Positions 14,941-62,179 of a stretch of 64,000 nucleotides of DNA are shown piece after piece; position 1 is the first letter of the stretch, and every line of letters starts with the position of its first letter. The translations under genes and the position numbers were made by a program. Location: positions 558,001-622,000 of the forward strand of contig NZ_JPRI01000001.1 in the NCBI RefSeq assembly GCF_000737765.1, given 5' to 3'. This DNA is from Chryseobacterium vrystaatense (GTDB taxonomy: Bacteria > Bacteroidota > Bacteroidia > Flavobacteriales > Weeksellaceae). The notes under the pieces were generated by a model that was not told where the DNA came from, did no database searches, and saw nothing but the letters and a program-made list of their open reading frames with translations.

Positions 14941-15867
14941 CTATTTTTTAATCCACCACTGGCTGTCTTTACGATCGGAACGTTTTACACCATTATTTAA
15001 AATATAGGCGAATCCTATACCCAAAGTTTGTTTCATCTGTGTTTTTTGGACCTGGTTATGATCATACAGAAGATCCAATGTGACATTGGAGGAAATAAAC
15101 TTATTGACCTTAAAGTTTAAAGCTGCCCCGTAAGCAAGAACAAGTCTCTCAGGATGATCCAGATAATTAGAGAAAACAGAAGCAGTATTCGTAATATGGA
15201 CATTCTCCATAAGCTTGACTTTATACAGTGCTGTTCCCAGAAAACCGAACTGCAGCAGCGAAGTATCACCGTCGTTTTTCAAACCATAGCTTCCTGCATA
15301 CTGAAGTTCTTTGTCTAAAACAAAGGTCCATCTGGCGTTGGTAGGTCGCATTGTTACCGTCAGATTGTCATTGGGTCTGTAGGTGATCCCCATACCGACG
15401 TTAAGGTAGCCGGGAGCCATAAAATTGGATATCTTTTTTGCAGCAGGATTATTTCCATCTTCATATCCGGCGGCAAACTGTGACTGAATACCTGCTCCTA
15501 AAGAAAAATACCAACTTTGAGAAAATTTACGTCCGTAATTGGTTGATACATTGATAACGTCCTGTGTTTTTCTTACACCAAGTCCCTTAGTATCATTCTG
15601 TCCATAATCCAGAGCAATAATGTTTTCCCAGAGGTCGTTGTCTTTCTCATAGGTGATATTGTAATTCACTCCGGCAAGCCATCCTACATTGTTGGCACCA
15701 CCACCCGCCCAGTTTGAAAAGGCGGCCTGATTGATCATTAAACTGTTTTTTCCTAATACTGACCAGTATTTTATCGTATCCACGACTACTGAATCTTTTT
15801 TCAATTCTTCTTGTGCACTTGCATAGATCCCCATAGAAAAGGAAAGAATCAATAAAATCTTCTTCAT
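14941..15867 (-). CDS. DUF3078 secreted / outer-membrane protein, copy 2
   Basis: 308 residues with signal peptide MKKILLILSFSMGIYASAQ. It aligns end to end with its neighbour: NQAAFSNWAGGGANNVGWLAGVN, RKTQDVINVSTNYGRKF, and KQTLGIGFAYILNNGVKRSDRKD. It has a better promoter than copy 1, so the two may be expressed separately. Likely outer-membrane beta-barrel; no known role. Confidence 0.88.
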   Translation of the reverse strand: MKKILLILSFSMGIYASAQEELKKDSVVVDTIKYWSVLGKNSLMINQAAFSNWAGGGANNVGWLAGVNYNITYEKDNDLWENIIALDYGQNDTKGLGVRKTQDVINVSTNYGRKFSQSWYFSLGAGIQSQFAAGYEDGNNPAAKKISNFMAPGYLNVGMGITYRPNDNLTVTMRPTNARWTFVLDKELQYAGSYGLKNDGDTSLLQFGFLGTALYKVKLMENVHITNTASVFSNYLDHPERLVLAYGAALNFKVNKFISSNVTLDLLYDHNQVQKTQMKQTLGIGFAYILNNGVKRSDRKDSQWWIKK

Positions 15868-42285: not shown

Positions 42286-44283
42286 TTATGCAAATGGGGC
42301 TCTTAAGCTATTAATGATATTGGCAGGCAATCCTGAAACGCCAGCATATCTTACATTATTAACCAATGATACATCGTCAGCTGAAGGAAATACGTAATTT
42401 CCGGTAAAAACACAGTTTTGAAACAGAGCATGGGTCAAGTGTTCAATTTTACCACCTTTCCATTCTACATTTTTGAACTGGATGTTGCAAGTATTGAATT
42501 CCCCTACTGTCTTATCATTGTCAAAATTACTCATCTCTCCTCCCTGAGCAATAAGATTTTTCACACCCATACCGTTAAATCTTAACCTGTTGTATCCAAA
42601 ACAATTATTCAATATAACTTCTGCCCTATTATTATAATCATTGTTGTCCCTTGAGTGCACGTAAGCACTTGTTGCATTACCTACATTCGTTGTTAACGTC
42701 CCTTCAATTTCTACTGTTATATTATGATTTTCCTGATAAATACTATCTTTCAATATAAGGGCGGCAACATACGAAGATTCAGGTTTTGCATTAAGTATAG
42801 TATCGGTTATTTTCAAATGCTTAACGTTATTATACTTTGCATTAATTGCTCCTAAATTATAACAAGAAATGTCAATAGCATCTGTATTAATTATTGGTTT
42901 CATAATATTTATTCTTTCGGGAAGAGTCGGAGGAGTACTAAATGCTGGAGGAGTAGCTATACCTCCCGTAGAAGTCAATGCAAACATAAAAATATCAGCT
43001 ATAGAATATGTATTAAATACCGGATTATTTATATTCACTATCCCTCCTAAATTGGGAGTATCAGCTCGGATTCCAAAAAATATTCTTGCACTCCCATTGA
43101 CTATTGGAGAATTCAGGGTAACATCATTTCCTGCAAACTGAAATGCAGCCGCGTCCGGTTCCGTTTTTATGATAGTGTCATTAGCTGTAAATCTGTCCGT
43201 CCAGTGATCATCTATTCCATCCTCCCAAACGCCTCTGTTGATGGTGACGTCTACGCTGTTTCTCCCAGTATATCCGTGTCTGCAGTCCATTACATTACCA
43301 TCATTAATGACTACACCTATTGATTCATAGTTTGCTATACCATAACCAACTCCATCTTTTCTAAATCCTATTATAAAAGGACTGTTGATGATAATATCAG
43401 CACATTGTTTTATTTCTAGTCCCACGAGTCCGACATTATTAAGCGTATTAATAATTCTTGGATTATTTAGCGTCACATTATCTCTATTAACAAATAAATA
43501 TCTTTCTTTGTTTAGCTTTCCACCTGTTTCAATACTCAGGTTTTCTATCGTAATAGGATCTTCCAATACATACTTGGTAACGGTCAACTTCTCCATCTTA
43601 GTGTATGTGCAAACTAAGGGTGTCGTTAATTTTCCATCATTACTTCTTACAAATTCCGTTTTCATGTAAGGCCCATTTGGAACGCCCTCCCGTTCGATTA
43701 AGATCTCTTTAGAATCAAAATGCAGATTTGCGAATCCTGTATTATTAAAACCTACATCTAAACTGCCTCTTAATATTTCTTGATTCCAACTGGCTGTACT
43801 AATAATTTCACCAGCGAAACGACGAGCAATCGTTATGGACACATCCCCATTCTCATTTCTAAGAATAAATTTCCCGTCACATCTTCCGCTCGCTTTAATT
43901 TCAAAAGGCTGTTGTACAACAACTTTAAATCCATCCGGAATAACCCAAAACATATTATTGGCATTGACATAATTAAAATATGATAAAACAAACGGCGTAT
44001 CATTGTATGTTCCATTTCCTTTTACCCCAAAGTATCTGACATCCAGATCGTGGGTGAAATTATGTTCCAGTTTGATTCCTCCTGTTTCGATAATACTTCC
44101 TCCATCATCCGTGCCCAATGTAGCAGATAAATGATAAATAACAGGGCCTGGAGTATCTCTTGTTTCATAATATCCTAACAGACAAACTCCCTTATAAATG
44201 CCGTTTTGGAGATCTGCTATTTCTGCAGCCGACAGATTTCTCATCTCTGTCATCGTGTTTTTTACAATACATGGAAAACTCAT
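42286..44283 (-). CDS. Right-handed beta-helix (pectate-lyase-like) protein without signal peptide
   Basis: 665 residues. The N-terminal head resembles that of phage tailspikes and prophage pectate-lyase proteins (TEMRNLSAAEIADLQNG, DDGGSIIETGGIKLEHNF, then DVRYFGVKGNGTYNDTP at about 78-94). A long region of short beta repeats (ITNSPFIIGFRKDGVGYGI-type) follows. No signal peptide, no T9SS domain and no visible catalytic motif. A polysaccharide-binding or -cleaving role is inferred from the fold only. Downstream of the double-glycine peptide and a remnant of its own paralogue. Confidence 0.8.
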   Translation of the reverse strand: MSFPCIVKNTMTEMRNLSAAEIADLQNGIYKGVCLLGYYETRDTPGPVIYHLSATLGTDDGGSIIETGGIKLEHNFTHDLDVRYFGVKGNGTYNDTPFVLSYFNYVNANNMFWVIPDGFKVVVQQPFEIKASGRCDGKFILRNENGDVSITIARRFAGEIISTASWNQEILRGSLDVGFNNTGFANLHFDSKEILIEREGVPNGPYMKTEFVRSNDGKLTTPLVCTYTKMEKLTVTKYVLEDPITIENLSIETGGKLNKERYLFVNRDNVTLNNPRIINTLNNVGLVGLEIKQCADIIINSPFIIGFRKDGVGYGIANYESIGVVINDGNVMDCRHGYTGRNSVDVTINRGVWEDGIDDHWTDRFTANDTIIKTEPDAAAFQFAGNDVTLNSPIVNGSARIFFGIRADTPNLGGIVNINNPVFNTYSIADIFMFALTSTGGIATPPAFSTPPTLPERINIMKPIINTDAIDISCYNLGAINAKYNNVKHLKITDTILNAKPESSYVAALILKDSIYQENHNITVEIEGTLTTNVGNATSAYVHSRDNNDYNNRAEVILNNCFGYNRLRFNGMGVKNLIAQGGEMSNFDNDKTVGEFNTCNIQFKNVEWKGGKIEHLTHALFQNCVFTGNYVFPSADDVSLVNNVRYAGVSGLPANIINSLRAPFA

Positions 44284-44450: not shown

Positions 44451-44651
44451 TTATTGCATTGGTTTCGTCAGTACAGGTGTAGAAGGTCCCGTTGTTGGTG
44501 TTGTTGTAGAAGGATTTACAGTAACTCCACAGGCACTTGCACATGCTGATATGGAAGAATATTCTCCTTTATAGGTAGTTCCACAATAGCATGCAAATCC
44601 TCCCTGTACCGATCTCATGTTTTCTCTTGTTAATTTTTTCAGATTTTTCAT
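44451..44651 (-). CDS. Bacteriocin-like double-glycine leader peptide
   Basis: 66 residues. MKNLKKLTRENMRSVQGG is a Chryseobacterium-type leader, with cleavage expected after GG (residue 18). The core has four cysteines (CYCG, CASACG) and a Thr/Pro-rich tail (NPSTTTPTTGPSTPV). Such peptides are exported by C39-peptidase ABC transporters and some are modified (RiPP precursors). No transporter or modifying enzyme is in the immediate neighbourhood. A 12-bp terminator directly follows it. Confidence 0.8.
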   Translation of the reverse strand: MKNLKKLTRENMRSVQGGFACYCGTTYKGEYSSISACASACGVTVNPSTTTPTTGPSTPVLTKPMQ

Positions 44652-44776
44652 AGTAAATATTAATTTTATGATCCCTACTCTTTTAGCTTTTCGGGTTTCG
44701 CTTTATTTCCCTAAATATAGAAATAATATTGTTAACATTCAAATTACAACCTGATATTTAATAACTTATAATGAAA

Positions 44777-44942
44777 TTAAATAAAAATAGGTGTCAAACC
44801 ATTGGTAATATTGCCCGGCAATCCTGAAACATTTGCATATTTTATATTATTAACCAGGGACACACTATCCGCTGAAGGAAATACATAATCTCCGGTAAAA
44901 ACACAGTTTTGAAACAGAGCGTGAGTCAGCTTGTCAATGCTT
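44777..44942 (-). pseudogene. C-terminal remnant of a second beta-helix gene
   Basis: The minus-strand frame with stop 44779-44777 reads LTHALFQNCVFTGDYVFPSA, then DSVSLVNNIKYANVSGLPGN, nearly the same as the last 50 residues of the beta-helix protein at 42286-44283. Homology stops abruptly near 44940, so about 92% of the gene is gone. The preserved frame and good identity suggest a fairly recent duplication followed by deletion. Confidence 0.85.
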
Positions 44943-45095: not shown

Positions 45096-48000
45096 TTACG
45101 AAACAGGAATTCCTAAATATTTGAGATAGGCATCCAGCATTTTTTTATCAAATACCGGTTCCTCAATTCGAGAATTTTCCAGAAACTGAATCACATTCGA
45201 ACAATCCCAGACATAGGTATTCTGATACAACTCCACCGTAGAAAGCCCTTCATGCATATTGTCTTTGAAAAGACTTGTCAGTGGGTACAGCCGGTTCTTA
45301 CTGTCATCCTCCCACTGTTTTCTCCATTCTTTGTAGGGAAGTCCTTCCAGGGTAAGGGGATAATATTTCTTCAGCAGATCAAAGAAGCTTTCCAGAGTGA
45401 GATTGGTTTCCGGTCTGGCAATAAGGTTAAATTTTTTCCCTACCGCTTCTTTATTTTTTGTGATGTGAGCCATGGCTTTGGTCATATAGTCTACCGTGAT
45501 CAGCCCTTCTCTCAATTCTGTGAGTAGAGGATAGGATTTGAATTCCACACAGTTTTTCACTAAACCAGACCACCACTGATAAGGAGCACTTGCTCCTGTT
45601 TCACTATGGCACATTGCGTAGCCCAGACGGTAAGTAATCAATGGAAGTCCTTCTTTAGCGGCCAGATCAGCTACAGCTTCCATTACCCATTTACTTCTTA
45701 CATACCCAATATCCTTACTTACAGACATCAGATTCTGTTCAATATCATCGCTTTCCAACATCACTGTTTTTCCCGTGAATATATGTCCCCAACTGTAAAC
45801 AGAAATAGTCGACAATAGCGCAAGGCATTTGGTCTTTTCAGCACCGGCAAGTTTTATAATCTCTCTCAATCCTTCGACGTTAGGAGCTTTCATATAAGAA
45901 TATGGCTCTATGAAATTTACAGAGCTGCCTGAATGGTAGATAAGGTCAAGCATCCCTGCAAGACTTTTGAACTTTTCATCAGAAAGGCCTAGCAATGGAA
46001 GAGACAGATCGCCTATTACCGGAATGATTCTTGGCTTCTGTTCTTCTTTTCTTTCAATATTGTATTGTTTAAAGCAATGGTCTATTTTTTCTACTGCATG
46101 GAATTCATCCTGAGCTCTTACAAGACAATAAATATCTGCGTTTGTAGTATCTAAAAGTTCCTGAAGTAAATGAATTCCGACAAATCCGGTGACTCCTGTT
46201 ACAAACAAGGTCTTTGGATTCTCTAATTGTTTAGGATCAAAACCTCCGGCGAAAACAGTTCCCGGTGCAAGATAGACGTCTTGCTGCAAGGCTACGTAGG
46301 GCTCTACATCTTCTTCAGGAATAGCTTCACGGGCTTCTTTCGCTCTTCGGATCAATTCACCGGCGAGCTGCTTAAGGACAGGAAACTGGTAGACATCCCG
46401 CATATAGACTTTGGTATCAACTTTTGAATTCAGTGCTGTGGCTACTATAGCTACTAAAAGGGAATTCCCTCCGATATCAAAAAAATTATCCGTTATGTTG
46501 ATCACAGGTCGTTCCAGTTCCTCAGCCCAGATATCCGCAATAATTCTCTCTGTCTCATTTGTAGGCGGTTCTGTGGAAATGAGTTCATTTGCCTCTTTAT
46601 CTGCGAGTTCTTTTAAGAAATGGGTATCTGTTTTTCCATTGGCTGTAAGTGGTATCTTATCAACATTTACGATCTGAGCAGGAATCATATACCCCGGTAA
46701 TTCTTCTTTAAGCTGTTGTCTCAACCATACGGCGTCTGTCTTTTCTCCGGATTTCATCACGACAAAAGCTACGATATACTTATTATTTCCAGTACTGTCT
46801 TTTGTGATGACAGCAGCCTCCTGTACTCCTTCGAGTCTGGGCAGAGTCCTTTCTATTTCTCCCAATTCGACACGGAACCCTCTAATCTTTACCTGATTGT
46901 CTATTCTTCCTAAAAACTCAATATTACCGTCAGATTTCCAACGGGCAAGATCGCCTGTACGGTATATCTTTTCATTTTCACTGAATGGGCTGGTAATGAA
47001 TTTTGCGGCTGTCAGTTCCTCATTATTAAGATATCCCTTAGCCAAAAGTATTCCTCCAATATGCAGTTCTCCTACTGCTCCTACTGGTAGCAATTCATTA
47101 TTTTCTCCTAAAATATAAGCTTTTGCGTTGGCAACCGGTTTTCCGATCGATGGAATGTATTCTCCATTCACATCTTTTACTTTCCTGAACGTAGCATAGA
47201 CTGTACATTCTGTAGGACCATAGTAATCAACCAGTTCATAACTTAATTCGCTTGTGAGTACAGGTTTGAGCTTTTCCCCACCGGTAAACAGAAATTTAAG
47301 CTGAAGGTCTGTATAATTTCTGGTTTCATTGACAAAAGAAGGAACAAGAACAGAAGGAACGAAGCCATGGGTAATATGATTTTTCCGGAAATACTTTACA
47401 AGTTCGGCAGCCTCTACCCGATCTTCATTATCTGCAATAAAGATCATCGCTCCGGCAGTAAGCGCTGACCAGGTTTCCCAGACCGAGATATCAAATGCCA
47501 GTCCCGCAACAAGGGTAAGCCGCGATGTATGGTCAACATGAAAATGATGATTGTGCCAGGTTACAAGATGCTGAATACTGTGATGTGAAATCATCACTCC
47601 TTTTGGGTTTCCAGTGGAACCGGATGTATAGATTGTATAGGCTAATGCATCCTGATGAAGTTCAATATCAGGATGTTCTTCGGATAGATGAGAATGATTT
47701 TCCAGATGGTCAAGGTGAAAAATTTCAGCATCAATTCCTTCTCCCAACAGATTTCCCCGCACCCCATCTGTCAGTATAATAACCGCTGAGGTATCTTTGA
47801 GGATATATTCTGCTCTTTTTACAGGATAGGAAGGATCTACAGGTACATAGGCCGCTCCTGTTTTCAGTACGCCAAGGATCGCCACAAGCCATTCCATTGA
47901 GCGGTCGAGCCAGACAGGTACGTACATCCCTTCCTTGACACCTTTTTCCATGAGAATATGAGCAAGCTGGCTGCTTTTCCTGTCAAGGTCACTATAGGTA

Positions 48001-48203
48001 ATGTGCTTATCCTGATAAACAGCGGCTATATTTTCAGGATGAAGAGATACCTGCTTTCTGAAAAGTGAAACCAGTGTTTCTTCTTCAGGATAATCCCATC
48101 CCGTTGTATTGAAATGGTCGAGAAGTTTTTTACGGTCCTCAGCGGATAAAAGAACCTGCACACCAGCTTGTTGTCCTGATGATGCTGATAATGTATTGAG
48201 CAT
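45096..48203 (-). CDS. Stand-alone NRPS-like enzyme: adenylation, carrier and thioester-reductase domains
   Basis: About 1035 residues from ATG 48203. Domains: adenylation at about 40-540 (AYTIYTSGSTGNPKGVMISH core A3, YYGPTECTVY, YRTGDLARW, the final Lys motif NGKTD); peptidyl carrier at about 545-625 (DNFFDIGGNSLLVAIV, Ser for phosphopantetheine); NAD(P)H thioester reductase at about 665-1035 (TGVTGFVGIHLLQELL). No condensation domain. It should activate one amino or aryl acid and release it as an aldehyde or alcohol. Likely pocket residues include Asp, Ile and Trp of FDISVWE and Phe in FLFTGG; I do not know the substrate. Confidence 0.93.
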   Translation of the reverse strand: MLNTLSASSGQQAGVQVLLSAEDRKKLLDHFNTTGWDYPEEETLVSLFRKQVSLHPENIAAVYQDKHITYSDLDRKSSQLAHILMEKGVKEGMYVPVWLDRSMEWLVAILGVLKTGAAYVPVDPSYPVKRAEYILKDTSAVIILTDGVRGNLLGEGIDAEIFHLDHLENHSHLSEEHPDIELHQDALAYTIYTSGSTGNPKGVMISHHSIQHLVTWHNHHFHVDHTSRLTLVAGLAFDISVWETWSALTAGAMIFIADNEDRVEAAELVKYFRKNHITHGFVPSVLVPSFVNETRNYTDLQLKFLFTGGEKLKPVLTSELSYELVDYYGPTECTVYATFRKVKDVNGEYIPSIGKPVANAKAYILGENNELLPVGAVGELHIGGILLAKGYLNNEELTAAKFITSPFSENEKIYRTGDLARWKSDGNIEFLGRIDNQVKIRGFRVELGEIERTLPRLEGVQEAAVITKDSTGNNKYIVAFVVMKSGEKTDAVWLRQQLKEELPGYMIPAQIVNVDKIPLTANGKTDTHFLKELADKEANELISTEPPTNETERIIADIWAEELERPVINITDNFFDIGGNSLLVAIVATALNSKVDTKVYMRDVYQFPVLKQLAGELIRRAKEAREAIPEEDVEPYVALQQDVYLAPGTVFAGGFDPKQLENPKTLFVTGVTGFVGIHLLQELLDTTNADIYCLVRAQDEFHAVEKIDHCFKQYNIERKEEQKPRIIPVIGDLSLPLLGLSDEKFKSLAGMLDLIYHSGSSVNFIEPYSYMKAPNVEGLREIIKLAGAEKTKCLALLSTISVYSWGHIFTGKTVMLESDDIEQNLMSVSKDIGYVRSKWVMEAVADLAAKEGLPLITYRLGYAMCHSETGASAPYQWWSGLVKNCVEFKSYPLLTELREGLITVDYMTKAMAHITKNKEAVGKKFNLIARPETNLTLESFFDLLKKYYPLTLEGLPYKEWRKQWEDDSKNRLYPLTSLFKDNMHEGLSTVELYQNTYVWDCSNVIQFLENSRIEEPVFDKKMLDAYLKYLGIPVS

Positions 48204-48605
48204 ATTAGTTTTTCGTTTTGGTTGATGATAAATGGTCAGAATGATCCGCATACACAGCAGAACTGTAGACTTATTCAGAATGGTCTACTACAAATCAAAC
48301 GATAAAGAATATGATTAATTCTTAAACATTACTATTTAAGACCATGTGGCTAGGTCTTGTTCATCAATTTGTCTTTCATAATGCAATATTTTTAATAATT
48401 TGGTAATCAAATTTAACATAATATTTTAAATGAAAGATTAAGCATTTCTTATTTTATCCCAAAAAAGAGAAATAATTTAGATATATCTATTCATCAACTG
48501 ATAAGATAAGACATAATAAATGGTGGGAAATATTAAAGCAATTTACTTTTTTCTTTAAGACCTAAACATCAAAAAATGTGTTATTTATCGATTGACAATA
48601 GGAAA
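48204..48605. other. Intergenic, no gene seen
   Basis: About 400 AT-rich bases between the NRPS-like start and the comM remnant. No good ORF, no clean TAnnTTTG element. The only structure is an imperfect hairpin near 48335-48352 (AAGACC paired with GGTCTT). It may hold the NRPS promoter of an unusual type. Confidence 0.5.
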
Positions 48606-56447: not shown

Positions 56448-56984
56448 ATGTCAAGTAAAATTTTTTTTATAGGAGGTATTCATGGTGTTGGTAAAAGTAC
56501 GATATGTAAAGAAATTTGCAGAGAATTAAACTTAGAATATTTATCTGCAAGTCAGCTATTAAAATGGAATGAATTAAATAAAAATCCACAGAATAAAAAA
56601 GTTGACAACATCTTATTGACTCAAAATAACTTGATTATTGGTTTAAGAAACAATACCCAAAATGATAAAAATTATCTCCTTGATGGGCACTACTGCTTAT
56701 TAAACAAAACTAATATGATTGAAGCTATTCCACTTGATACCTTTATTCAAATCAATCCTATAAATCTGAATATTATTTTGGGTAATATAGGTGAAATTAG
56801 CAAAAGGCTTGAGGATAGAGATAAAAAAATATATCCAGTTGAACTTCTGCAAAAATTTCAGAATTATGAATTATTCCATGCTAAACAAATATCTAAAGAA
56901 TTAAATATTAATCTTAATATTGGTCTTCCTAATGATTATGACGAAATAATAAAAACCATTTATATTAAACTAACTAAACCATGA
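56448..56984 (+). CDS. P-loop kinase-like protein
   Basis: 178 residues. Walker A GIHGVGKSTICKEICREL at residues 9-20, then LLDGHYCLLNKTN and a lid-like IGEISKRLEDRDKKIYP segment. The fold is that of the AAA_33/adenylate-kinase-like group that phosphorylates nucleosides, nucleotides or RNA ends. No specific substrate. Its stop overlaps the start of the PIN-GNAT-ASCH gene by 4 bases, so they are translated together. Confidence 0.8.
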   Translation: MSSKIFFIGGIHGVGKSTICKEICRELNLEYLSASQLLKWNELNKNPQNKKVDNILLTQNNLIIGLRNNTQNDKNYLLDGHYCLLNKTNMIEAIPLDTFIQINPINLNIILGNIGEISKRLEDRDKKIYPVELLQKFQNYELFHAKQISKELNINLNIGLPNDYDEIIKTIYIKLTKP

Positions 56985-58483
56985 AAGCATTACTAGACAC
57001 AAACATTATTATCCATAGGGAGGCTTCTAGGGTAATTAACCAAGATGTTGGAATTCTTTATCGATGGCTAGAAAGAGCCAAATACACGAAATGTGTTCAC
57101 TCTCTTTCAATTGCTGAAATTGAAAAATATAAAGATCAAACAGTTGTTAATACCTTTCATATAAAGCTAGACAGTTATGAACAAATTGAGCTACCCTCTC
57201 CCCTACAAAAAGAGGTTTTAGAATTATCTAGTATAATAGATGTGAATGACAATGATAAAAATGACACTCAACTTTTGAATGAAGTTTATATTGGTAGAGT
57301 CGATATTTTAATTACTGAAGATAAAAAGATGCATAGGAAAGCTCTTGAGTTAAAAATTCAAGATAAAGTCTTTACTATAGATTCATTTCTGGAAAAAACA
57401 TTTGCAGAGCATCCTGACCTTGTCAATTATAAGGTTCTTAATGTTCAGAAGCTCAAATTTGGTAGAATTAATTTAGATGATAACTTTTTTGAGAGTCTTA
57501 AAGAAGATTATGACGGATTTGACAAGTGGTTTATAAAAAAGTTTGACGAAGAAGCATATATTACCATAAACTCAAATAATGGTCTATTACTATCATTTTT
57601 ATACTTAAAAATTGAAGACAGTAATGAAAGTTATCCTGATATTACACCTCAATTCCCTCCTAAAAAAAGGCTGAAAATAGGAACTTTTAAAGTAATAAAT
57701 AATGGATTTCGCTTAGGAGAAAGATTTATGAAAATCATTTTTGATAATGCTTTAAAAAATAAAGTTGAAGAAATATATGTCACCATATTCGACAAAAGAG
57801 ATGAACAAAAAAGACTCATCGACTTATTGGAGCAATGGGGTTTTGTTCTTTGGGGGAAAAAAAATAAAGAACTAATATATGTAAGAAACTTTACTAAAAC
57901 TTTTAACAAAGAGAATTTAAAAGCAAATTATCCCTATATTTCAAGATCAGAAAATTGTTATATAGTTCCAATTTATCCTGATTACCATACAAATTTATTA
58001 CCAGACTCAATCTTAAATACAGAATCTCCAGAGGAATATGTCGAAGATTTCCCTCACAGAAATGGCATTAATAAAGTTTATGTTTCACGAGCATACGAAC
58101 CACATCCTGAACGTGGAGACATTCTCATTTTTTATAGGACAGGAGGTTACTACAAAAGTGTAATTTCAACAATTGGAATAGTCCAAGAAGTTAAATATGA
58201 TTTTAAAGACGAAGATGATTTCGTTTTATATTGTAGAAAAAGCACAGTATTTCCAGAACATGACTTACGGAAAATGTGGAATTATTCTACTGAAAAGCCC
58301 TTTGTTGTTAATTTTTTATATGTTTATTCTTTTCCTCACAGGATTAATATGAAAGAGTTAATTGATTTAAAAGTTCTTAATGGCGTTAATGATTCACCGC
58401 GAGGATTCAAATATATCAGTGAACAAAAATTTGATGATATTTTAAAGAATACAAAGAGTGATGAAAGCTTTATTCTTGATTAA
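56981..58483 (+). CDS. PIN - GNAT-like - ASCH/EVE-like fusion protein
   Basis: 500 residues, three modules. PIN nuclease at 1-145: MKALLDTNIIIHREAS (first Asp), SLSIAEIEKY (Glu), DILITEDKKMHRKA (Asp). Middle about 155-310 has GNAT features: GTFKVINNGFRLGERFMK and KRLIDLLEQWGFVLWG. C-terminal about 350-490 (RGDILIFYRTGGYYKSVISTIG) is a PUA-fold, ASCH/EVE-like reader. So one chain joins an RNA-cleaving, an acyl-transferase and an RNA- or modified-base-binding domain, fitting a toxin or defence effector. Middle of the four-gene operon. Confidence 0.8.
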   Translation: MKALLDTNIIIHREASRVINQDVGILYRWLERAKYTKCVHSLSIAEIEKYKDQTVVNTFHIKLDSYEQIELPSPLQKEVLELSSIIDVNDNDKNDTQLLNEVYIGRVDILITEDKKMHRKALELKIQDKVFTIDSFLEKTFAEHPDLVNYKVLNVQKLKFGRINLDDNFFESLKEDYDGFDKWFIKKFDEEAYITINSNNGLLLSFLYLKIEDSNESYPDITPQFPPKKRLKIGTFKVINNGFRLGERFMKIIFDNALKNKVEEIYVTIFDKRDEQKRLIDLLEQWGFVLWGKKNKELIYVRNFTKTFNKENLKANYPYISRSENCYIVPIYPDYHTNLLPDSILNTESPEEYVEDFPHRNGINKVYVSRAYEPHPERGDILIFYRTGGYYKSVISTIGIVQEVKYDFKDEDDFVLYCRKSTVFPEHDLRKMWNYSTEKPFVVNFLYVYSFPHRINMKELIDLKVLNGVNDSPRGFKYISEQKFDDILKNTKSDESFILD

Positions 58484-58504
58484 TAGTTAATAATATTCTA
58501 AAAA

Positions 58505-59437
58505 ATGAAAAGCATAGCTATTTGGGAATCAAGAAATGATAATAATCCATTTCAAGACATTGAATTACATTTTAATTATTGGAAAATACCTAATAAACGA
58601 AAAGAATTTCATAGATTTTTAGATATTGGTCTAAAATTAATATCAACTCAAAATACTAATTGTATAAATTTTTACTTTCCGGCTAAAATAGAACAAGATA
58701 ACTTTCATGAGATAGTGTCTAAATTTATAAATAAACCTGATTTGTTGAGTGCAATATTTAATGAAAACTATAAAGTTGTTAGTCAAGTAAGTAAACAACA
58801 TAAAATTTTAAATGATCAAGATGAAGAAGTTTTTACTATTTATGAGTTTTCAAGTAATGATTTAACTTTTGAATATAAGTATAATGGAACTATTGTAAGT
58901 ATAAATCTTCCTAAATTAAATAAACAATTATATATAAGATTTAGAATTTCTGGTCAATTTTTAAATCAATTATCGACAATTAGTACTCCTCCAAATTCAG
59001 TTTTTGAAAGTGCTTTTTCTGAATTAGAAATGATTGATTTTAGAGTTAATGAAATAAGAGATTTAAGTAAAGACTTAGTTGAAATCTATGGGAAGATGTG
59101 CCATATTAAAAAACAACATTTCTTTTATATTTGCAGCAATAATGAAGATGTTATTGGATATCATACGCCATATTTGAGTTGTCGCAATCTCGAAAACTAC
59201 AGATGGAACGGATATGTTGATCTACCTAATATTGAGAGTGCAATTTTTCTCGCATATCATTGGAAATGGGATAGCCAAGAAAACAGTTCGCTTTTAATTA
59301 AATCTAAATATGAAAAGAACAATTGGAATACTATAGCAAAATATTTGTTATTAGTCGTTGGTATATCATTGCTAGGAAGCTGTTTATATGATATATTTAA
59401 GTTAATTATAAAATTATTTATTACTGAGTTAAAATAA
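58505..59437 (+). CDS. C-terminally membrane-anchored protein of unknown function
   Basis: 310 residues. A long soluble part with no recognised domain (MKSIAIWESRNDNNPF, CHIKKQHFFYICSNNEDVIG) and one strong transmembrane segment near the C-terminus (YLLLVVGISLLGSCLYDIF, about 280-300), so it is likely tail-anchored with the bulk in the cytoplasm. It sits between the PIN-fusion and ASCH genes; membrane-anchored partners occur in defence operons, hence the interest. The stop overlaps the next ATG by one base. Confidence 0.7.
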   Translation: MKSIAIWESRNDNNPFQDIELHFNYWKIPNKRKEFHRFLDIGLKLISTQNTNCINFYFPAKIEQDNFHEIVSKFINKPDLLSAIFNENYKVVSQVSKQHKILNDQDEEVFTIYEFSSNDLTFEYKYNGTIVSINLPKLNKQLYIRFRISGQFLNQLSTISTPPNSVFESAFSELEMIDFRVNEIRDLSKDLVEIYGKMCHIKKQHFFYICSNNEDVIGYHTPYLSCRNLENYRWNGYVDLPNIESAIFLAYHWKWDSQENSSLLIKSKYEKNNWNTIAKYLLLVVGISLLGSCLYDIFKLIIKLFITELK

Positions 59438-59814
59438 TGAGAGTATTATTATCAATAAAACCTGAATTCGCTTTCAAAATATTTGAAGGAGAAAAAAAAT
59501 TTGAATTTAGAAAAGTCATTTTTAAGAAATTGGATGTTACAACTGTTGTCGTTTATGCCTCGTCTCCCGTACAACAAGTTATCGGGGAGTTCGAAATTGA
59601 TACAATTCTAACTTCTAATCCTGAAGATATCTGGCAAAGAACAAAAAAATTATCTGGAATTACTGAAAAATATTTCTACGAATATTTTGGAGAGAGAGAA
59701 ATTGCACATGCGATAAAAATTAAGGAGGTAAAAAAGTATTCGAAACCACTATCATTGAAAGATGATTTTAATGTTTCCCCTCCTCAATCTTATATGTATT
59801 TGGATATTGCATGA
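59437..59814 (+). CDS. Small ASCH-domain protein
   Basis: 125 residues. VLLSIKPEFAFKIFEGEKKFEFRKV at the N-terminus, VVVYASSPVQQVIGEFEID and HAIKIKEVKKYSKPLSL fit the ASCH/PUA-like fold, with the conserved GxKxxEFR region that contacts nucleic acid. Possibly an RNA or modified-nucleotide binder and the partner or antitoxin of the PIN fusion. Last gene of the operon, closed by an exceptionally strong terminator. Confidence 0.85.
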   Translation: MRVLLSIKPEFAFKIFEGEKKFEFRKVIFKKLDVTTVVVYASSPVQQVIGEFEIDTILTSNPEDIWQRTKKLSGITEKYFYEYFGEREIAHAIKIKEVKKYSKPLSLKDDFNVSPPQSYMYLDIA

Positions 59815-59817
59815 TCA

Positions 59818-59868
59818 AAATTTTAACAAAGAAGCCTGTGAAAAACACAGGCTTCTTTGTTAAAATTT
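59818..59868. terminator. Exceptional 23-bp perfect hairpin terminator
   Basis: 59818-59840 pairs without mismatch with 59846-59868, loop AAAAA; the outer part is A/T-rich, so it acts on either strand. Confidence 0.9.
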
Positions 59869-59898
59869 AAATAGATAAATTAGAAATCTATTTATAAC

Positions 59899-60058
59899 TT
59901 AAATCCATTCCTCATCAGCAGATGTAATGTTAAAAGGAACAGATCTTTCAAACTCCTGGATGTTACCTGTCAGCCTCTAAACCGACTAAATGGTGTAATA
60001 GTTGTGATAATTGCCAATCTTTTATTCTATTGATATCTTCAATTTTTATCTCATTCAT
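59899..60058 (-). pseudogene. Remnant of a PIN-domain gene fused to another gene's start
   Basis: Minus strand: ATG 60058 opens MNEIKIEDINRIKDWQLSQL and ends at a TAA after GLEADR. In a different frame across that stop, LTGNIQEFERSVPFNITSAD then EEWI and TAA (59901-59899) is like the C-terminus of VapC-type PIN proteins (TGNIxDFE). So two partial genes meet, with no functional product expected. Confidence 0.6.
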
Positions 60059-60195
60059 TTTTTTACAATATATTTGTGTAGTGAATTTCATCAAATTTAC
60101 AATCGTTTTATTTAAATCCAAATAAGCATGTGAAATTTCTATATGCTTTCAAAATATATAGACTAGTAATACATATAAATATCAATTATTTATAA

Positions 60196-60203
60196 TAAAT
60201 TTG
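60196..60203 (+). promoter_or_regulatory. -7 element of the second cargo operon
   Basis: TAAATTTG matches TAnnTTTG, 17 bases before ATG 60221. No TTG at 17-23 bases upstream. Confidence 0.55.
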
Positions 60204-60220
60204 TTTCACAGATAGTGAAA

Positions 60221-61051
60221 ATGACTAAAGACCAAATTCATCGCGAAGATTTAAGAAAGAATATGATGAAGAACATCATATTTCGAGTATATTATCAGGG
60301 AATTATAGATTCTGAAGATATTATAAGAGTATTTAATGAGAAATTTAGAGAATGTTTTAAATCATTCGAAACAACTTTCTATAGTAAATTAGAGTTAGAT
60401 TTTAATAATATTGATGATGTTATCGATACTTTATCAATCCCTCGTTCTGAAATTCAATCTCAGGAAATTTTCAGATATACAGAAAACACCTTTGGAACTG
60501 ATAAGCTAACTTTTGATATTAATAAATATTTTTCCTCATTAACAATTGATTGTACAAACTATGTAAATATAGATCCTTATCTAAGCTTTTTTGCAGATTA
60601 TTTAGAGTTCTTATATGAGCACAACGAATTTCTAAAGATCAAAAAAATTGCTTTACGTAAATTAGGAGGTGATATTTATCGTAGTCATGAAAGTATTTAT
60701 GAAGATTTTGAGTCCAATCTTTTTAAATCAGATTTTGAAGAGTATGGTTATCGCCCAATGCAAAACAGATATGAGGATATTTTACAAAGTGGTGTCAAAG
60801 AGCCTATTATTAATATCATCCGTTCTTATGAATTTGGAACCTACAAGAACGAAAACTCTGAAGATGCTCCCGCATTTCAGGTTCTATTAGATCTTGAAGG
60901 ATATTATCCGGAATATATTTTAGAAAAAATTGGTTTTGGAAAAAATCAAGCTGAAAAAACTTTAAAACATATTAATCATAATCATTTATTTAATATCTTT
61001 AAATTATCTGTAACAGAAAATTATTTAAATAAACATTCACGAAATGGCTAA
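60221..61051 (+). CDS. Unknown protein, first gene of a compact cargo operon
   Basis: About 276 residues from ATG 60221 (GTG 60215 is the alternative). Acidic and helical, no signal peptide or membrane segment; conspicuous YFSSLTIDCTNYVNIDPY and a C-terminal LEGYYPEYILEKIGFGKNQAEK. No family recognised. Its stop overlaps the next gene by 8 bases. Confidence 0.72.
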   Translation: MTKDQIHREDLRKNMMKNIIFRVYYQGIIDSEDIIRVFNEKFRECFKSFETTFYSKLELDFNNIDDVIDTLSIPRSEIQSQEIFRYTENTFGTDKLTFDINKYFSSLTIDCTNYVNIDPYLSFFADYLEFLYEHNEFLKIKKIALRKLGGDIYRSHESIYEDFESNLFKSDFEEYGYRPMQNRYEDILQSGVKEPIINIIRSYEFGTYKNENSEDAPAFQVLLDLEGYYPEYILEKIGFGKNQAEKTLKHINHNHLFNIFKLSVTENYLNKHSRNG

Positions 61052-61205
61052 AATATTTATTGATAAAAACTTCAGATCCATGAAGGATGGTCGAATTGAA
61101 AAAATTGAGTTTAAGCCATCTGTTAGAAAGAGTGCAATATCCAAAGAGGTTAATGTGTCTCATTTTTTACGTACTGCTAAGCCTATTATTCGAAAAGATC
61201 AGTGA
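61044..61205 (+). CDS. 53-residue protein between two operon genes
   Basis: Frame MAKIFIDKNFRSMKDGRIEK ... RKDQ, stop TGA 61203-61205. It overlaps the upstream stop by 8 bases and the downstream GTG by 4 (GTGA). Basic, with Lys/Arg in every third or so position. Overlap with both neighbours, and the absence of a gap, argue that it is translated. Not recognised. Confidence 0.65.
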   Translation: MAKIFIDKNFRSMKDGRIEKIEFKPSVRKSAISKEVNVSHFLRTAKPIIRKDQ

Positions 61206-62179
61206 CCTATTTTGTTGAAAATATCAATGAGATCACACTTGACGTCTTTACTATAGGTTATTCTGAGAAAGGAGAAAGTCAAGTAATTTTACTTTATGAT
61301 AATATCAAAAATCAATGTTTATTTTGTTTTGTTATTGATTGCTATTCCACTGCAACATTCCATAAAACAAAAGACATTTTAGATCAATATAATATTTCAA
61401 ATATTGATTACTTTATTTGGACTCATACTGACGAAGATCATTCTGTCGGAATTGATATTTTAGTTGATAATTACTGTTCTGCGAAAACAAATTTTTATCT
61501 ACCTGAAGGAGTTGATGGTAGTGAATCAGATGTTTTCAGCTACAGTGATGATATTAAAAATTGCCTTGAGAAGATTAATTCTTTAAATAAGAATCAAAAT
61601 TACTCTGTTCATACGTTAACACTGCCTACAGGTGGAAACCTCGAAATTGCAAGAAAAACTATTAAGGAAGAAAAAACCACAAAACAGTTTAACTTTCAGG
61701 TTTTTTGTGTAGCTCCTTTCTCGGCCATTATTAGAAGAAGAAAATTAGCTAAAGAAGCAGGTGTAACACATATCAACGCAAATGACTTTTCAATAGCAAC
61801 TGTCTTCAAAGTTGGAGAATTAAGTTTATTATTTAGTGGAGACATTGAAAACCAAACAATAAATTTAATTCCAGACTATCACTTCGAAGGATTATCATAT
61901 GTGAAGACCCCTCATCATACTTCTAATACATCTACAAAATTATTGGATAAAATTGGAAATAGTTTTGATGGTATAAAAATTCCAACTGCTGTAACAACAA
62001 CCTATAAAGTATTCAATCTTCCTAAATCAGAATTAATTGAAGAATATCGGAAGTTTGTTACATCTTTTAATTCTACAGGAAGAGGCACTGAAGGTTATGG
62101 ATGCGTCAAAACAGTTTTTAATGTTATTAAAAAAGAATATACCGAAGAATTAATTGGAGACGCAATAAAACATTTTTAG
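61202..62179 (+). CDS. ComEC-like metallo-beta-lactamase-fold protein
   Basis: 325 residues from GTG 61202. Metal motif WTHTDEDHSVGIDIL (HxDxDH, as in ComEC/Rec2-type MBL domains), then LSLLFSGDIENQTI and YVKTPHHTSNT, giving later ligands. Lacks ComEC membrane domains. Cytosolic nuclease or phosphodiesterase activity is inferred. Third gene of the operon; some defence systems use this fold as effector. Confidence 0.85.
   Translation: MTYFVENINEITLDVFTIGYSEKGESQVILLYDNIKNQCLFCFVIDCYSTATFHKTKDILDQYNISNIDYFIWTHTDEDHSVGIDILVDNYCSAKTNFYLPEGVDGSESDVFSYSDDIKNCLEKINSLNKNQNYSVHTLTLPTGGNLEIARKTIKEEKTTKQFNFQVFCVAPFSAIIRRRKLAKEAGVTHINANDFSIATVFKVGELSLLFSGDIENQTINLIPDYHFEGLSYVKTPHHTSNTSTKLLDKIGNSFDGIKIPTAVTTTYKVFNLPKSELIEEYRKFVTSFNSTGRGTEGYGCVKTVFNVIKKEYTEELIGDAIKHF

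Follow-up and report, generated by a model that had tools for sequence, protein, structure and literature searches.

This locus raises the question of whether a single-module nonribosomal peptide synthetase (NRPS) with no condensation domain is an enzyme with a product of its own, or whether it depends on another assembly line or is a remnant of one. The window analysed here is a stretch of 64,000 nucleotides from Chryseobacterium vrystaatense, and its minus strand encodes a 1,035-residue protein with adenylation (A), carrier (T) and thioester reductase (R) domains (45096–48203, stop codon included). The gene is a single uninterrupted open frame from the ATG at 48203 to the stop at 45096; an alternative start lies 16 codons further up, at 48251, and most relatives align from 48203. 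A Pfam scan of the whole protein gave matches to AMP-binding (residues 48–392, 2e-76), AMP-binding_C (449–524), PP-binding (PF00550; 555–615, 2e-11) and NAD_binding_4 (668–911, 5e-54), and neither a condensation nor a thioesterase domain. The adenylation domain and a short linker-like leader span about residues 38–528 (46620–48092; Pfam and PDB alignments), the carrier domain residues 555–615 (46359–46541; Pfam) and the reductase domain residues 666–1030 (45114–46208; Pfam, NCBIfam and MxaA alignment), all on the minus strand, as are the residues located below.

Comparisons with curated models and solved structures place the protein among NRPSs. It passes the NCBIfam models for amino-acid adenylation (TIGR01733; 405 bits, cut-off 317) and thioester reductases (TIGR01746; 319 bits, cut-off 213). 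Its scores fall below the cut-offs of the equivalogs for carboxylic acid reductases (CARs; NF041592, 142 bits versus 1300), aminoadipate reductase (Lys2; TIGR03443, 394 bits versus 1030) and MxcG of myxochelin biosynthesis (NF038078, 537 bits versus 2300), the last being its top-scoring NCBIfam match, which begins at profile position 457 of 1442. In a PDB search, the best long alignments were to the A-T parts of NRPSs, including LgrA, tyrocidine synthase and GrsA; the reductase part alone matched MxaA best (9e-48), then a type I polyketide synthase (PKS) reductase, then CARs, weakly (2e-19). By eye, the protein begins with a short stretch that resembles a C-A linker, and a full NRPS module is therefore its probable ancestor. 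The predicted structure (mean pLDDT of 60.7, from a shallow 28-row alignment) is too poor to use.

The catalytic residues are in place. Placement on GrsA and the family alignment identify K524 (GrsA K517; 46632–46634), in the A10 motif TANGKTD, as the catalytic lysine; the alignment supports S581 (46461–46463), in FFDIGGNSL, as the phosphopantetheine attachment serine. The catalytic T799, Y834 and K838 of the R domain (45690–45809) carry the same letters as in the solved MxaA reductase, and all five residues are invariant across the 28 rows. With an A domain, a T domain that has its serine, a terminal R domain that has the T-Y-K set and no condensation or thioesterase domain, the protein has the sequence features of a monomodular A-T-R NRPS of the ATRed type. 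A sequence-only reading of this DNA had described a complete A-T-R protein with no condensation domain, and both points hold. From the domains and the intact catalytic residues, we infer that the enzyme would reduce one activated acid to an aldehyde or an alcohol.

The three motifs quoted in the sequence-only reading (FDISVWE, FLFTGG and YYGPTECTVY) are all found in the protein. Placement on GrsA locates the pocket residues D238, I239 and W242 (GrsA 235, 236 and 239) in FDISVWE (47478–47492), F306 and G308 (GrsA 299 and 301) in FLFTGGE (47280–47288) and Y327, V335 and Y336 (GrsA 322, 330 and 331) in DYYGPTECTVY (47196–47225). G280 (47364–47366) is the likely counterpart of GrsA 278, and is ambiguous, with F281 as the alternative, because GrsA has one more residue in the strand before VPS. 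The ten-position code is thus D-I-W-G-F-G-Y-V-Y-K, with an uncertain fourth position (G or F); both G280 and F281 are invariant in the 28-row alignment. Conservation was counted, with F281 as the fourth position, over 44 sequences comprising the window protein and 43 relatives; the broken copy at locus L048 was left out. All 44 share the D, W, F, Y, V and K of the pocket, down to overall identities of 59% (Sphingobacterium) and 63% (Chitinophaga), and the variation comprises conservative exchanges at three positions (I/L, G/A and Y/F).

The aspartate and lysine of NRPS pockets hold the amino and carboxyl groups of the substrate and mark α-amino acids, as is established for the family. The nearly invariant pocket points to an α-amino acid substrate, and aryl acids are unlikely given that the Asp and Lys typical of α-amino acids are kept. 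Its bulky lining may hint at a small side chain. We know of no code that equals D-I-W-(G/F)-F-G-Y-V-Y-K, in agreement with the earlier remark that the pocket matched no recognized code, and five spellings or parts of it were absent from the literature searched.

A search of public assemblies for related loci returned 47, of which three (L049–L051), which are 35% identical, align best over the A-T part and have no reductase part, were dropped before all counts. The remaining 44 align over almost the full length of the protein at 59–88% identity, the closest at 88%, and originate from Chryseobacterium (42), Sphingobacterium (one) and Chitinophaga (one). Single frames of 1,020–1,085 residues encode 43 of these 44 relatives, L048 being broken, and such frames are too short for an additional condensation domain, as judged by length rather than by individual Pfam scans. 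A condensation domain in a misassembled upstream part, which the earlier reading had named as the observation that would overturn it, was not found: the upstream DNA is intergenic as far as the 3′ piece of comM. Because the frame is equally short in 43 of 44 relatives, we rejected a lost or misassembled condensation domain and an assembly artefact.

The A-T-R gene is a Chryseobacterium family. Matches at 1e-250 or better occur in 69 of 173 genomes sampled from the genus (about 40%), counting the broken copies in genomes G251 and G309. All matches of at least 73% identity in a family-level sample of 246 genomes were from Chryseobacterium, and a phylum-level sample of 395 genomes added only a 39% match outside the genus. 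The gene is under purifying selection: for the A and R domains of 13 pairs, dN was 0.02–0.25 per domain, far below dS where dS was computable (at least 0.84). Distances among A-T-R sequences correlate with the distances among the adjacent peptidases (r = 0.69 over 38 sequences; none of 999 shuffles was as high), a pattern that mostly vertical inheritance would produce. A few relatives have broken copies (L048 and G251, with a frameshift in G309).

The neighbours of the gene are housekeeping-like. In the window they encode a tailspike-like protein, a bacteriocin-like peptide, a YdeI/OmdA protein, an S46 peptidase, a META protein and a split comM, and no tailoring gene was seen among them, as the sequence-only reading had stated. 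Its term 'orphan' is apt in that no partner genes adjoin, and too strong in that the gene has a conserved upstream element of its own (see below). As in the window, comM precedes and the S46 peptidase follows the gene at 39 of 44 loci; neither lies within the stretch examined at L031, L032, L037, L047 and L052. We examined 12 of the 104 non-carrier genomes and found comM near the peptidase with no A-T-R gene between them in 9; in the other 3, comM falls beyond the stretch or the contig stops short. None of seven other genes tested lies near the Sphingobacterium and Chitinophaga copies, and the frame lists there show no evident shared gene.

When 15 A-T-R leaders were aligned, strong conservation emerged in a block some 220 bases ahead of the start. 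In the window, leader alignment and genome searches define a 19-base element, TATTATGTTAAATTTGATT (48405–48423, minus strand), 220 bases before the start codon, inside a wider conserved block with approximate limits of 48365–48426 (minus strand; leader alignment). When up to four mismatches are allowed, the core TATTATGTTAARTTTGATT is present in 41 of the 45 leaders, the window included, and absent in L031, L032, L037 and L047. Column identity averages 0.99 and 0.91 across the two ten-base blocks of the core and 0.81–0.85 just downstream, and falls to about 0.5 some fifty bases from the core on either side. In the genome of the window, an exact copy occurs once, and up to three mismatches give 9 sites versus 5 for a reversed control. 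Exact copies were found in 47 of the 173 genus genomes, comprising 45 of 69 carriers and 2 of 104 non-carriers, and the reversed control gave none; some of the 24 carriers with no exact copy have mismatched ones. Of 48 exact sites, 45 are 203–388 bases before the A-T-R gene and on its strand; those in G157 and G139 look unrelated.

This distribution, with exact copies 203–388 bases upstream in 45 of 69 carriers versus 2 of 104 non-carriers, is why the element looks like a dedicated, probably regulated, putative promoter. It contains TAnnTTTG, which we take to be the −7 box of Bacteroidota, and 27 longer leaders have a second block close to AATTATGTAAC about 24 bases ahead of the element. The gene of L052 sits at another place and still has the element with it. 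G108 (L090, around base 15145) has the element next to a comM 3′ piece but lacks the A-T-R gene, and this arrangement looks like the trace of a lost gene. We rejected a small conserved gene at the element; a frame read from its ATG would run for 6 to about 50 residues, the ATG is missing in two copies, and early stops or indels occur in several. We also rejected a covarying hairpin or palindrome, given that the right arm is not kept (by eye), and Rfam at gathering thresholds gave nothing at the leader.

A condensation-family match over Pfam's own cut-off, and hence a real family member even where weak, is present in 68 of the 69 carriers. The best E values are 2.6e-38 or better in 30 genomes and between 1.1e-11 and 4.0e-17 in the 38 with weak matches; G179 is the one carrier with no match at 1e-10. 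In the genome of the window, the two weak matches belong to a contig 11 PKS cluster, flexirubin-like by eye, and we assume that those of other carriers likewise come from flexirubin-like clusters. In 39 of the 69 carriers no condensation match is better than 1e-20, so the enzyme seems not to need a classical assembly-line partner. The same genome has no MbtH helper; its PF01648 matches comprise two transferase-sized genes elsewhere and a third match inside a 1,424-residue frame.

Contig 3 of this genome holds a PKS/NRPS-like cluster with an adjoining phosphopantetheinyl transferase gene, and the A-T-R protein could work in trans with such an assembly line. The existence of this cluster and the presence of some condensation-family match in nearly all carriers would suit such a role. 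We nevertheless consider it quite improbable, given the carriers in which every condensation match is weak, the location of the A-T-R gene on a different contig and the near-copies of the upstream element (up to three mismatches), which are at about control level elsewhere in the genome. It is less credible still that the gene is a decaying relic with no product. The broken copies, and the G108 lineage that lacks the gene while the upstream element remains next to a comM fragment, would fit decay; against this, the matches of the other carriers listed contain no internal stops, purifying selection is strong and the catalytic residues are invariant.

We instead propose, with about even confidence, that the protein is a minimal, self-sufficient NRPS that releases an α-amino aldehyde, which dimerises to a pyrazine. 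A phosphopantetheinyl transferase encoded elsewhere would arm S581, the A domain would activate one α-amino acid with ATP and load it onto the carrier, and the R domain would reduce the thioester with NAD(P)H and release the α-amino aldehyde. Two amino aldehydes would then condense with no further enzyme to a dihydropyrazine, oxidation of which would give a 2,5-disubstituted pyrazine. The parts of this proposal differ in strength: an amino-acid substrate and release as an aldehyde are highly probable, a pyrazine as the end product is evenly balanced, and a small side chain such as that of alanine is improbable.

An enzyme of this kind is already known elsewhere; what is added here is how the family is distributed, that its pocket is fixed and that it has an upstream element of its own. 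ATRed of Xenorhabdus indica (xind01729) is, like the window gene product, one A-T-R module with no condensation domain; it is reported to be tied to a phenylalanine-derived pyrazine, which was also obtained on expression of the gene in Escherichia coli, and dimerisation and oxidation of the aldehyde with no further enzyme are the proposal of its authors (PMC7586950). It differs in being proteobacterial and in its proposed activation of phenylalanine (PMC7586950); the likeness drawn here is one of domain architecture and reported product. HamD and the mgo/pvf systems of the valdiazen family are described as systems in which the product of an A-T-R enzyme goes into a small signal; the ham genes are in operons with tailoring enzymes, none of which was seen beside the window gene (PMC5878181). 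A second Chryseobacterium A-T-R group (L068, L070, L071 and, within a two-module protein, L069) is 37–39% identical to the window protein. The same domains were found in the three scanned, L068, L069 and L070; unlike the window gene, this group adjoins a phosphopantetheinyl transferase gene, in L069, L070 and L071. The A-T-R part of L069 forms the end of a two-module protein that has a condensation domain.

The main rival to release as an aldehyde, unlikely in our view and still well ahead of the other alternatives, is that the R domain reduces twice and yields a free amino alcohol, which could be a signal, a lipid head group or a precursor. MxaA, the closest solved R domain, makes the alcohol end of myxalamid, so reduction may go beyond the aldehyde; the top-scoring NCBIfam match, MxcG, points the same way. 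The reductase modules of MxaA and MxcG are parts of assembly lines, and the window protein differs from both modules in having no condensation domain and in scoring far below the MxcG cut-off. In the ham pathway, valdiazen is reported to arise via two two-electron reductions with the A-T-R enzyme HamD (PMC5878181), but the closest stand-alone precedent is described as halting at the aldehyde (PMC7586950), and the sequence cannot separate two- from four-electron reductases here. It is improbable that the protein is a CAR for aryl or fatty acids. The domain order is the same and the reductase part matches CAR structures, although weakly; the CAR equivalog score is below its cut-off, the amino-acid adenylation model passes, and there is no variation at D238 and K524, which in this enzyme family bind the amino and carboxyl groups.

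For a stand-alone A-T-R enzyme, one gene can suffice to yield a product, and therefore each conserved family with a fixed pocket offers a short path from sequence to molecule. Pyrazines also arise from acetoin (PMC7756357) and from aminoacetone; if the product of the A-T-R family is a pyrazine, the enzyme would be an alternative to the acetoin or aminoacetone routes, and this product could be a genus-typical metabolite. An isolate named by similarity as C. indologenes 6-4 is reported to emit 2,5-dimethylpyrazine, which three Bacillus/Brevibacillus isolates tested alongside did not (PMC10536184). The record of C. indologenes AA5 carries the A-T-R gene (L046). From these leads and the bulky residues that line the pocket, we offer as speculation a one-gene volatile system under its own control. 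In it, a small amino acid, perhaps alanine, would be converted via its aldehyde to 2,5-dimethylpyrazine, with the upstream element as the switch and the volatile as a genus-typical cue; we hold this to be a slim prospect.

Pyrazines are reported to make up about 13% of the headspace extract of C. polytrichastri, for which the authors name acetoin and amino-aldehyde routes and state that simple pyrazines may stem from the medium (PMC7756357). In a paper on the volatiles of Chryseobacterium AD48, the word 'pyrazine' occurs once, in the introduction (PMC4683202). A monomodular-reductase route to pyrazines is given as a possibility for the lentzeacins (PMC8658869). An 'NRPS-like' cluster, which may or may not be the A-T-R gene, is reported in four Chryseobacterium genomes with no evident synteny (PMC8151938). 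The literature searched held no reported product of the Chryseobacterium A-T-R family and no paper that brings together Chryseobacterium, nonribosomal peptide synthetase and thioester reductase.

Several other features of the window and the genus were observed. The comM gene is split by a Tn7-like element (TnsA, TnsB, TniB/TnsC, TniQ, a resolvase and cargo) that extends from 49298 to about 65495, beyond the window end. Codons about 1–239 and 282–511 of comM flank the element, and some 45 codons between them are at neither junction. At nine other Chryseobacterium loci, only the comM 3′ piece is in the stretch seen; eight of these pieces begin at codons 279–287, and relatives of TnsA, TnsB, TnsC and TniQ adjoin in 7 of the 9. 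The cargo in the window (56981–62179) encodes a protein that matches the PADLOC candidate defence family PDC-M11A near full length (2e-215) and another with weak matches to metallo-beta-lactamase-fold defence models. On the other side of the A-T-R gene, the minus strand encodes a 66-residue peptide with a Chryseobacterium leader (44451–44704; NF047798, bacteriocin-like), with a DUF805b RNA motif at 44672–44704, about 20 bases before its start codon. The 665-residue protein at 42286–44283 (minus strand) is tailspike-like by eye and has no Pfam or NCBIfam match, and a truncated second copy of its 3′ end (by eye) lies just upstream of the bacteriocin-like peptide, at about 44780–44880 on the same strand. 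Elsewhere in the genus, giant NRPS genes with many condensation matches form single frames of about 14,300–15,200 residues (G072, G136, G213, G221, G223, G224, G270 and G291).
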